Shown piece by piece: positions 2,890 to 4,953 of a stretch of 64,000 nucleotides of DNA. The position numbers and the translations under genes were made by a program. Every line of letters starts with the position of its first letter. Within the stretch, counting starts at the first letter, position 1. Below the pieces are notes generated by a model. The model did no database searches. It saw only the letters and a program-made list of their open reading frames with translations, and was not told the origin of the DNA. The DNA lies in contig NZ_OY780933.1 of NCBI RefSeq assembly GCF_963676065.1, positions 1,864,001-1,928,000 on the forward strand, given 5' to 3'. The DNA is from Maridesulfovibrio sp. (GTDB lineage: Bacteria > Desulfobacterota > Desulfovibrionia > Desulfovibrionales > Desulfovibrionaceae).

Positions 2890-3498
2890 ATGAGTGAGCA
2901 GGAAGCTGTAAATATAATCAAGACCGGAGGAGTTCTGGTCTACCCCACGGAAACGCTTTTCGCCATAGGCGCTGACGCCATGGATGAAAAAGCGGCCAAC
3001 CGTGTCGCGCGCATCAAAGGGCGTCCAATCTTTAAGCCTTTGCCATTGATTGTCGGCAGTATTGAGCAACTTGATCTGGTCACTGACAAAATTTCCCCTG
3101 AAATTTTAGAGCTTACCCGTAAATTCTGGCCTGGACCGCTTTCCATTCTGGTCAAGGCCCGTCCTGAACTACCTTCCGCAGTGAAGGACTCCAGAGGCTA
3201 TACCTCCGTGCGTTGGACTGAACATCCATTAGCCGCGAGTCTGTGTTTAAAAGCCCGCACTCCGCTGATAGCCACCAGTGCCAACATGAGCGGAAAACCG
3301 CCAACCGGCCTTGCTTCTGAACTGGATGAAGAACTCACCGTGATGGTAGAGGGTGTTTTTGATGAAAAACCCGGGCCTAGGGGCGGTGAACCATCCACAG
3401 TGGTTGAACCGCTTAAAGGAAAACGTATTAAAGTATACCGGGCCGGGGTAATAACTCGTGAAGAGATTGTCCGTGCCGGATTCACTCTCGTGGATTAG
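2890..3498 (+). CDS. L-threonylcarbamoyladenylate synthase (Sua5/YrdC family)
   Basis: This 202-residue single-domain protein makes threonylcarbamoyl-AMP from Thr, bicarbonate and ATP, the first step of t6A37 formation in ANN-decoding tRNAs. The family signature is present: YPTETLFAIGADA near the N-terminus, the phosphate-binding IKGRPIFKPLPLIV with its K-x-R, IATSANMSG, and the closing PSTVVEPL...VYRAGVI. It lacks the extra C-terminal Sua5 domain, so it is the short TsaC-like form. The start at 2890 is preferred over 2860 because GGGAG precedes it. It is followed by its own terminator. Confidence 0.87.
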   Translation: MSEQEAVNIIKTGGVLVYPTETLFAIGADAMDEKAANRVARIKGRPIFKPLPLIVGSIEQLDLVTDKISPEILELTRKFWPGPLSILVKARPELPSAVKDSRGYTSVRWTEHPLAASLCLKARTPLIATSANMSGKPPTGLASELDEELTVMVEGVFDEKPGPRGGEPSTVVEPLKGKRIKVYRAGVITREEIVRAGFTLVD

Positions 3499-3520
3499 CC
3501 TTTTTTTGAAAAAGTTTTTC

Positions 3521-3553
3521 AGACCTGCCTTCATGCGAGGGCAGGTCTTTTTG
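3521..3553 (+). terminator. Intrinsic terminator after the TsaC-like gene
   Basis: A perfect 9-bp stem (AGACCTGCC / GGCAGGTCT) with a 10-nt loop is followed by a T-run. It separates the upstream gene from the small-RNA units. Confidence 0.85.
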
Positions 3554-3557
3554 TTTG

Positions 3558-3625
3558 GTATAAAAAATTTTACCTCCGATCCCTTAATACGGAGGTCTTT
3601 CCAAGGCTGGTAAAATTTTTTGTAC
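3558..3625 (+). promoter_or_regulatory. Upstream activator site pair of small-RNA unit 1
   Basis: Two inverted copies of one 17-bp element face each other: GTATAAAAAATTTTACC at 3558-3574 and GGTAAAATTTTTTGTAC at 3609-3625, a 16/17 match when inverted. They lie 51 bp apart start to start, and the inner end of the second is 92 bp from the -24 GG of the sigma-54 promoter. Between them is a further hairpin-capable CCTCCG/CGGAGG. The position is typical of enhancers bound by an NtrC-family activator. That role is inferred. Confidence 0.55.
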
Positions 3626-3716
3626 TTAATTGCATACAGTCCGGCGAAAATTTCTTTATGATAAGATGTAATTATATTAGTGGTTTATGCGACTATATGT
3701 AGTCGTTTGTGTTTTT

Positions 3717-3731
3717 GGCACAGCCATTGCT
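3717..3731 (+). promoter_or_regulatory. Sigma-54 (-24/-12) promoter of small-RNA 1
   Basis: TGGCACAGCCATTGCT (from 3716) has GG at 3717-3718 and GC at 3729-3730 with the obligatory 10-nt gap. It matches the RpoN consensus TGGCACG-N4-TTGCW at nearly every position. The predicted transcription start is about 3742. Confidence 0.8.
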
Positions 3732-3741
3732 AGATAGATAT

Positions 3742-3811
3742 TACCTTCAAACTTTTGCTGATAAAAATGCTGAAACGGGCCTCGTCGGGATCAACCGACG
3801 AGGCCTTTTTC
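3742..3811 (+). ncRNA. Small RNA copy 1, sigma-54 dependent, about 70 nt
   Basis: The RNA is predicted to start near 3742 and end in a textbook terminator: a perfect 11-bp stem GGCCTCGTCGG / CCGACGAGGCC (3778-3788 with 3795-3805), a 6-nt loop GATCAA, then TTTTT. The 36-nt 5' part (begins UUACCUUCAAACUUUUGCUG) has little internal pairing and could be the target-pairing region. It carries a CCUU stretch that could pair with Shine-Dalgarno-like sequence. No conserved open reading frame spans both copies. It is a trans-acting sRNA candidate; targets and any Hfq dependence are unknown. Confidence 0.65.
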
Positions 3812-3938
3812 ATTTTGCGGTTCTTTTCAGTCGGGAATTTTTTCCTGACTAATTCAGAACAATTTTATTTTGTGATCTGCTTACTGGATCGGGAAAAATC
3901 TGTCTGTGTCATAGAAGTGATCTGGACAACCGAAAAGT

Positions 3939-4007
3939 GGTAAAAATTTTTTTACCCTGAATCCCGTGTTAGAGGGTCATTTCCTTAACGGGTAAAATTT
4001 ATTGTAC
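3939..4007 (+). promoter_or_regulatory. Upstream activator site pair of small-RNA unit 2
   Basis: GGTAAAAATTTTTTTACC at 3939-3956 (itself nearly palindromic) and GGTAAAATTTATTGTAC at 3991-4007 repeat the arrangement seen in unit 1. The second element ends exactly 92 bp before the -24 GG, the same distance as in unit 1, although the sequence between element and promoter is unrelated in the two units. This preserved spacing argues for function. Confidence 0.55.
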
Positions 4008-4098
4008 TGATCTCTGAGGTTGAACAGTAAAACTCTTTTGATATTTTATTCATTTAAATTAGTATGTTGTATGGTAAATCGACCTGCATGTTGAATTT

Positions 4099-4113
4099 GG
4101 CACGGCCATTGCT
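4099..4113 (+). promoter_or_regulatory. Sigma-54 (-24/-12) promoter of small-RNA 2
   Basis: TTGGCACGGCCATTGCT (4097-4113) is a full match to the RpoN consensus TGGCACG-N4-TTGCW, with GG at 4099-4100 and GC at 4111-4112. The predicted start is about 4124. Confidence 0.82.
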
Positions 4114-4123
4114 AGATAGATAT

Positions 4124-4193
4124 TACCTTCAAACTTTTGCTGATAAAAATGCTGAAACGGGCCTCGTCGGGATCAACCGACGAGGCCTTTTTC
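4124..4193 (+). ncRNA. Small RNA copy 2, identical to copy 1
   Basis: The transcribed part is identical to copy 1, including the 11-bp terminator stem (4160-4170 with 4177-4187) and T-run. Promoter-proximal DNA upstream of the -24 box has diverged. This keeps the same RNA product while allowing different promoter strength, as in the multi-copy sigma-54-dependent Qrr RNAs of Vibrio. The RNA itself does not resemble Qrr. Confidence 0.65.
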
Positions 4194-4473
4194 ATTTTGT
4201 GCCCCTTAAAGCTGCTCCAAAGGGTGAATGCATGCTGAACAATTTCTGATGAAACCCTTTTTGAATGGCGTTTTCCCTCGTTTTGCCTGCCTCCGGGACT
4301 AGTGGTAAAAAAAATTGAACTAGAATGAATTATGTAGATATTGTGGACTTTGAGAAAAAGGTTCGGATTCTCTTGTAATGAAATTTTATTCGAGTTATTT
4401 GTAGAAAATAGATGCTAGTTGTTCAGGATGTATAGCTATTAATTTATTGTCTTAATATATAAGGTTGTTTCTT

Positions 4474-4953
4474 ATGCTCGTTTCCAAGCCCTGTCCGCAC
4501 TGTGGGGGAGATGTGGTTATGTACCGTAATCCTGTCCCTACTGTGGATGTTGTTATTTATGATCCCGCCCTCGGAGTTGTTTTGATTGAGCGCAACAATC
4601 CGCCTTTTGGCTGGGCCTTGCCCGGAGGTTTTGTGGATTACGGAGAAACCCTTGAGCATGCCGCTGTGCGGGAAGCAAAAGAAGAGACCGGGCTTGATGT
4701 AGTGTTGACCGGACTGGTAGGAGTTTACTCCATGCCGACCCGTGATGACCGCCAGCACACCATAAGCATCACATACAGCGCAGTCGCGCGTGATACCAGT
4801 CTCCTGCAGGCCGGTGACGATGCTGGAACGGCTTCTTTTTTTCAATTGCATAGCCTTCCTGATCTGGTTTTTGATCATCGGGATATTCTGGGTGATTTTT
4901 CTTCAAAAATACTTCGACTGCATGAACATGCCGCTGTGGGTAGCAGCGGTTAA
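4474..4953 (+). CDS. NUDIX hydrolase
   Basis: The 159-residue protein has a complete NUDIX box G-x5-E-x7-REAKEETGL that coordinates the metal for hydrolysis of a nucleoside diphosphate linked to X. A CPHCGG half zinc knuckle sits at the N-terminus. The ATG at 4474 with AAGG nine bases upstream is chosen over a TTG at 4465. glgA begins 27 bp downstream, so an ADP-sugar (ADP-ribose or ADP-glucose) substrate is plausible, but nothing in the sequence proves it. Confidence 0.83.

Follow-up and report, generated by a model that had tools for sequence, protein, structure and literature searches.

In the 64-kb stretch of DNA analysed here (the window), the spacer between sua5/yrdC and a Nudix hydrolase gene holds two units in tandem, each with the order palindrome pair, promoter, RNA, terminator. 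Their cores are 104-nt repeats at 3714-3817 and 4096-4199 that are 99% identical to each other; the single mismatch within the repeat lies in the promoter spacer, and the predicted transcripts are identical. The features of the locus, all on the plus strand, are given below together with the source of each assignment.

2890-3498, plus strand: sua5/yrdC (PF01300), conserved neighbour on the upstream side, from synteny
3557-3574, plus strand: distal enhancer palindrome of unit 1, GGTATAAAAAATTTTACC, from sequence, with the same kind of element in relatives
3609-3626, plus strand: proximal enhancer palindrome of unit 1, 52 bp downstream of the distal one, from the pattern search
3716-3731, plus strand: predicted sigma-54 promoter of unit 1, TGGCAC-N5-TTGCT, TGGCACAGCCATTGCT, from the promoter scan and, in relatives, a constant distance of 11 nt to the RNA 5' motif
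3742-3810, plus strand: predicted sRNA of unit 1, about 69 nt, from sequence, fold and a 24-row alignment
3743-3758, plus strand: conserved segment near the 5' end, ACCTTCAAACTTTTGC, largely single-stranded by fold prediction, from fold, alignment and patterns
3777-3810, plus strand: predicted intrinsic terminator of unit 1, from fold and covariation
3939-3956, plus strand: distal enhancer palindrome of unit 2, GGTAAAAATTTTTTTACC, from the pattern search
3991-4008, plus strand: proximal enhancer palindrome of unit 2, 52 bp downstream of the distal one, from the pattern search
4098-4113, plus strand: predicted sigma-54 promoter of unit 2, TGGCAC-N5-TTGCT, TGGCACGGCCATTGCT, from the promoter scan
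4124-4192, plus strand: predicted sRNA of unit 2, equal to that of unit 1, from sequence
4159-4192, plus strand: predicted intrinsic terminator of unit 2, from sequence
4304-4321, plus strand: lone enhancer-like palindrome after copy 2, GGTAAAAAAAATTGAACT, without promoter or RNA, from the pattern search
4474-4953 (start at about 4474), plus strand: Nudix hydrolase gene (PF00293), conserved neighbour on the downstream side, from synteny

The start of the sRNA was set 12 nt past the C of the -12 element, following the usual rule, and its end was put in the T-run. Between the end of sua5 and the start of the Nudix gene, the units are crossed by two ORFs on the forward strand (62 and 61 aa), which we judge not to be genes. 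Compared with each other across about 275 bp, with gaps counted as differences, the two units are 68% alike; the RNAs are nonetheless identical. An earlier note on this DNA had described two tandem units with perfect promoters and identical predicted transcripts of about 70 nt, and all of this was borne out at the positions it gave. Note that its starting point, 3558, falls inside the first enhancer palindrome, and that the palindromes go unmentioned there. The same note had claimed a terminator with a perfect 11-bp stem. The hairpin is strong, with a predicted fold of -31.3 kcal/mol (z = -7.24) that none of 200 shuffles equalled, and the stem comprises 12 pairs, 11 of them Watson-Crick and one G-U.

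In an alignment of 24 units (21 distinct), pairing of this stem is retained in 100% of the cells, and relatives carry changes on both sides at 4 of the 12 pairs. This number is reached by 22 of 500 shuffles and the covariation score by none of 500, in shuffles that ignore the kinship among the 24 units. Across 113 units, 71% have a hairpin with z below -2, a figure that is not independent for the units of L199-L275 because these were pre-filtered at a fold of -12 kcal/mol. Terminators can be wholly different between units while the promoter and the 5' motif persist, as in L199 versus L200; within L199 (G105) itself, three copies have the same promoter and 5' motif and two unrelated terminators. 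Loops of the form GG(A/G)(U/C)GG..CC recur among otherwise different terminators in genera g5, g21 and g43, and could constitute a second conserved element. A function as a CsrA sponge was considered and dismissed, the GGA of the terminator loop not being conserved in the 24-row alignment when inspected by eye.

The core of a sigma-54 promoter has the consensus TGGCAC-N5-TTGCW. It is present in the units of the window and in their relatives, where the search pattern itself required most of it. Within the 64 kb, perfect matches to TGGCACNNNNNTTGCW occur at the two unit promoters and nowhere else (n = 2). If one mismatch is allowed, four matches are obtained against a shuffle mean of 2.23, and 17 of 100 shuffles reach four; the promoter call consequently rests on conservation and not on the window by itself.

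Upstream of most units lies a pair of AT-rich palindromes of 18 bp. In both units of the window the members of the pair are 52 bp apart and thus in helical phase, the layout expected if two dimers of an NtrC-family activator bind one face of the DNA. Among 114 units, the spacing is exactly 52 bp in 58 and between 46 and 58 bp in 79 (69%), compared to 12% in controls obtained by first-order resampling; 12 further units have a spacing of 40 bp, or about four turns. The two best palindromes per unit reach a score of 24.5 versus 19.1 (sd 1.4) in resampled sequence, for a consensus that was picked after the sequences had been viewed and a score that leaves the spacing out. Note that the 114 units are kin to one another, with 39 of them originating from a single genus, and that the pattern used to retrieve the units outside that genus did not include the palindrome pair. 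The form of the palindromes is similar across families. We infer that the pair may serve as a paired enhancer for one NtrC-family activator. In the genome of the window the enhancer pattern has 16 matches, seven at the array and nine at seven other sites. Viewed at one locus each, these seven sites showed nothing beyond loose sigma-54-like matches (L160, L164 and L165), which were not taken as linked promoters. The lone palindrome at 4304-4321 is possibly the remnant of a third unit. By eye, an IHF-like site at about -60 is visible in some units.

As evidenced by a covariance model combined with the promoter and 5' pattern, all 17 genomes of the genus carry homologues, with two to three copies each and 39 units in total. 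A blastn search with the 104-nt core in 199 genomes of the family retrieved nine other genomes at E < 1e-9, all in the genus, the rows at E 0.004-1 being short partial matches. The covariance model R1, run on 288 genomes, likewise gave strong scores in the genus only, because terminators differ between genera. Both sua5 and the Nudix gene are found at 16 of 16 loci of relatives in the genus, and the nine relatives fetched at the outset share the order spoU, glycosyltransferase gene, sua5, units, Nudix, glgA, glgB. The promoter, the paired palindromes, the hairpin, the copies and the synteny are established by sequence and conservation. For 23 of the 39 units the closest relative lies in the same genome, a pattern suggestive of unit-to-unit copying in some lineages. 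One genome, G186 (L118, G186:C2:248000-267000), has a divided array: its two parts are about 12 kb apart, and the one with spoU and sua5 is inverted with respect to the one with the Nudix gene, the arrangement that a block inversion by recombination between unit copies would leave behind.

Beyond the genus, units were sought with two patterns in which promoter and RNA 5' end stand at a fixed distance, with the reversed pattern as a control. The first matched in 70 of 288 family genomes and 14 of 44 genera (reversed control, 6). The second, made for pyrimidine-rich variants, found 131 of the order's 348 genomes, spread over 20 of 59 genera and five of six families, with a single control match. 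The patterns are complementary, since the second misses the window genome, in which the middle of the RNA reads CAAAC. Some of the matches with the most mismatches are probably due to chance, and L322 in G332 is doubtful, having two mismatches in the genome that is also the source of the sole control match of the second pattern. Conversely, L036, from a metagenome bin of the Desulfovibrionaceae, has at the sua5-Nudix place a variant with TGGCCC and one extra base that the pattern missed; the RNA is therefore spread more widely than the counts indicate.

The place in the chromosome is often retained as well. Among 40 family loci in other genera, chosen for carrying pattern matches, both sua5 and the Nudix gene are found at 17 (genera g43, g38, g21, g20, g13, g15 and g5); at the other 23 neither is present in the stretch fetched, and more such loci exist elsewhere. 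In other families, 22 short loci (L306-L327, about 1.5 kb on each side) include sua5 in 20, the Nudix gene in 12 and both in 11, and a 10-kb stretch from family f4 (L379) has sua5 and spoU and no Nudix gene. Copies away from this site are found in g21 (up to six matches in G096, one of them doubtful), g38, g40 and g5. More than one copy occurs in the genus of the window and in g21, g43 and g22, and not in every member of the RNA family. The predicted RNA family extends across many branches of this order of sulfate-reducing bacteria, often at one chromosomal spot. In g38, L331-L334 have a second sRNA-like unit distant from sua5-Nudix, and in L331, L332 and L334 a GGCGGTGT stretch stands immediately before the promoter.

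Across genera the RNA is best conserved in its 5' part, which is partly owed to the search pattern, as this demanded a 5' motif. In the window it consists of the blocks ACCUUC and CUUUUGC separated by three free bases; an example from family f6 reads ACCUUCCUCCUUUUGC. In predicted folds of 113 units the first 18 nt are unpaired with an average probability of 0.75, and exceed 0.8 in only 53%. We calculated the pairing of the 5' tails from five lineages with artificial sites, and obtained -8.7 to -11.6 kcal/mol for AAGGAGGU, -4.5 to -12.4 kcal/mol for a GAAGGU site, only -3.5 to -6.4 kcal/mol for a GGAGA site and -1.4 to 0.6 kcal/mol for a site without a Shine-Dalgarno sequence. Segment 3743-3758 is thus likely to be a seed of anti-Shine-Dalgarno-like character. 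Note that richness in C and U by itself yields pairing with Shine-Dalgarno sequences, and that pairing of the 5' end with GAAGG or GGAGG sites roughly equals or falls below that of the 16S rRNA tail.

Joint complements of both seed halves were sought in 17 genomes and, among the matches listed, were fewer than for the reversed control in most of them. The complement shared most widely among these matches, by seven genomes, lies opposite clpX at three loci viewed (clpX domains identified by Pfam in L390), and for a gapless complement of six genomes the two loci viewed showed no clear shared start region; no target emerged from these complements. A search for Hfq with PF17209 gave no match in the window genome, with 5 of 14 control genomes positive.

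The number of possible activators in the window genome is large: the sigma-54 activator domain has 31 matches there (28 strong), and none inside the window. Two genomes that carry the RNA are far poorer in strong matches, G035 with six and G262, a single contig of 1.41 Mb, with two. When their activators were compared with the set of the window genome by best hits, one regulator alone was common to both (67.4% identity in G035, 65.6% in G262):

G000:C1:888834-890204: candidate response regulator with receiver, sigma-54 and HTH_8 domains and the motif GSFTGA

A histidine kinase gene is located directly upstream of it, and we infer that this two-component regulator may be the activator, so that the units would probably be worked by one conserved sensor pair. 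At E <= 1e-100, which paralogues may reach too, 340 of 348 genomes gave a match, a few of the 340 at a level that a paralogue or fragment could give. With the regulator this close to universal, its co-occurrence with the RNA is uninformative, and its presence fits an RNA found throughout the order. G218, G236 and G030 have an RNA match and gave no match to the candidate, and no enhancer palindrome was found near the candidate's own gene. An activator encoded beside the RNA gene was also considered: in a BLAST search with 26 activators of the window genome, mostly within 5 kb on either side, an activator-like ORF lay near the RNA at 2 of 40 loci in other genera, which provided no lead.

Because of its universality and its GSFTGA motif, the candidate would appear to be of the DVU3220 type. 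According to the accessible text of Rajeev et al. (PMC3333781), DVU3220 is conserved in all Desulfovibrio examined, is without DAP-chip data, and has as its sole target by gel shift the ammonium transporter/PII operon DVU1231-1234; that of Kazakov et al. (PMC4641369) gives no binding motif for it. If the candidate is of this type, the published target points to roles besides, or other than, control of this RNA. A sigma-54 activator of about 860 aa was observed in L148, L351, L347 and L360; the one in L148, from the window genome, has a C-terminal end that by eye is unlike the usual Fis-type helix-turn-helix, and its relative is the second of the two strong activator matches in G262. The small genome G243 has two paralogues of the candidate (L290, L294).

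Taken together, we consider it probable that each unit is a stand-alone gene for a trans-acting sRNA of about 70 nt that is controlled by the candidate regulator and acts through its 5' end on Shine-Dalgarno regions. A phosphorylated response regulator of the NtrC family would occupy both palindromes, which face the same side of the helix at a distance of about five turns, and would loop to the RpoN-RNA polymerase at the -24/-12 promoter, after which the transcript would start and terminate at the hairpin some 70 nt on. Transcription of the sRNA is presumed. With less certainty, the CU-rich 5' end, ACCUUC...CUUUUGC, may then pair with Shine-Dalgarno regions and block translation of target mRNAs, apparently without Hfq, and extra copies would raise the dose of the sRNA. 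A trans-acting repressor of translation with a 5' seed is proposed because the 5' part is kept, is mostly unpaired and pairs with ribosome binding sites. A bolder version, which we regard as unlikely in this full form, would make the RNA an Hfq-free regulator throughout the order, whose 5' end mimics the anti-Shine-Dalgarno sequence of 16S rRNA, acts as a brake on the translation of mRNAs whose ribosome binding sites match, and constitutes the main output of the DVU3220-type regulator, which would be the NtrC-type two-component regulator most conserved in the order.

Several other explanations can account for parts of these data. The same sRNA gene might be served by a sigma-54 activator other than the candidate, or by one that varies with the lineage, given the 28 strong matches in the window genome, the three RNA-bearing genomes in which the chosen regulator finds no match, the near-universality that deprives correlation of its value as a test and the different target published for the DVU3220 type (accessible text of PMC3333781). 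As the intersection of two activator-poor genomes leaves the candidate alone, and as the similar form of the palindromes across families suggests one DNA-binding domain, we hold this to be rather unlikely. Doubtful, and still a plausible reading, is that the RNA uses both halves of its seed to act on a protein or a single specific mRNA, its anti-Shine-Dalgarno likeness being incidental; the retention of ACCUUC as well as CUUUUGC around a variable middle is indeed more than Shine-Dalgarno pairing requires, but among the matches listed, with few loci viewed, the genus yielded no joint complement recognisable as conserved.

The common position upstream of the Nudix gene and in the same orientation could also indicate a leader acting in cis, by attenuation of the Nudix-glg genes downstream of it. 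Such a leader sits poorly with a terminator of its own in each tandem unit, with the 23 of 40 family loci that have neither sua5 nor the Nudix gene, and with the wholesale replacement of terminators next to an unchanged promoter and 5' motif, and we regard it as very improbable. We give next to no credence to a chance pairing of a promoter-like and a terminator-like sequence that was subsequently duplicated: the promoter consensus alone is too common within one window to dismiss this, but conservation throughout the order against one control match in 348 genomes, the phased palindrome pairs and the covarying stem all argue against it. We thus return to a trans-acting sRNA, and conclude that the units belong to a real and widely conserved family of predicted sRNA genes, multi-copy in the genus and furnished with RpoN-type control signals.

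At the gathering level, Rfam gave no match in the window and none in ten loci, nine with the RNA and one, L277, an activator locus. Matches below that level look like chance. The best of them, RF02590 (minus strand, 3497-3670; 32.3 bits versus 208, E 4.9e-5), covers the end of sua5 and the first enhancers and not the RNA, and was set aside as an AT-rich chance match. Qrr was not among the 25 Rfam matches up to E = 10 at 3400-4500, in a copy of Rfam that may hold no Qrr model. A literature search that covered few subscription journals, with supplements outside its scope, found no report of the RNA family, which apparently is undescribed. It represents a conserved and probably regulatory RNA family of one bacterial order, lacking an Rfam match where tested, and it provides a response regulator retained throughout that order with a concrete target. 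With multi-copy RpoN-type sRNA genes in a genome in which no Hfq was found, the working of sRNAs there becomes directly testable.

The D. vulgaris Hildenborough RpoN-dependent ncRNAs are targets of DVU0653, DVU0679/Dv_sRNA2, DVU1419 and DVU2359, according to the accessible text of two reports (PMC4641369, PMC3333781). They resemble the present RNA in their dependence on sigma-54 and NtrC-family activators and in belonging to the same order, but as far as that text goes three of the four adjoin an activator gene, whereas none of the activator-domain matches of the genome lies in the window and few of the loci in other genera have an activator-like ORF. Distinguished by position from three of these four, the RNA described here may overlap with one of them, in particular with the RNA upstream of DVU3282.

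A comparison with Qrr had been drawn in the earlier note, which proposed an RpoN-controlled sRNA locus with a Qrr-like arrangement and no Qrr sequence. The Qrr sRNAs of Vibrio form part of a LuxO/RpoN/Hfq system, and they resemble the present units in that several short sRNA copies, each with a sigma-54 promoter and a terminator, depend on an NtrC-family regulator; multiple copies with their own promoter and terminator are found in every one of the 17 genomes of the genus. An RpoN-type sRNA locus unlike Qrr is supported by computation, and the architecture of paired palindromes and promoter agrees with the proposed control by an NtrC-family activator. By its own refutation criterion, a core that is not conserved in related genomes, the note's reading survives: conservation extends even beyond the Desulfovibrionaceae. 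The parallel to Qrr does not reach further than the arrangement: no Hfq was found, not every member is multi-copy, the candidate regulator, the only one scanned, scores 400 bits against a LuxO cut-off of 800, and the enhancer sequence presumably differs from the LuxO site.

Multi-copy RpoN-dependent sRNAs, which that note had taken as a hallmark of Vibrio, are moreover not special to this group. CrcZ and CrcY of Pseudomonas and Azotobacter are reportedly CbrB/RpoN-dependent, and are a further case of more than one such sRNA under a single two-component system. CrcZ is a decoy for Hfq/Crc with A-rich repeats, whereas the RNA described here has a short CU-rich 5' end and no Hfq was found. The CcsR or cuckoo RNAs of alphaproteobacteria, anti-Shine-Dalgarno sRNAs that also occur in multi-copy clusters, share a CU-rich segment pairing with ribosome binding sites; they are under stress sigma factors other than RpoN and present the motif in loops, while here it begins at about +2. 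RpoN-dependent sRNAs are thus known as a kind, and what is new in this family is its sequence, the setting without detectable Hfq, its spread and the phased pair of enhancers.
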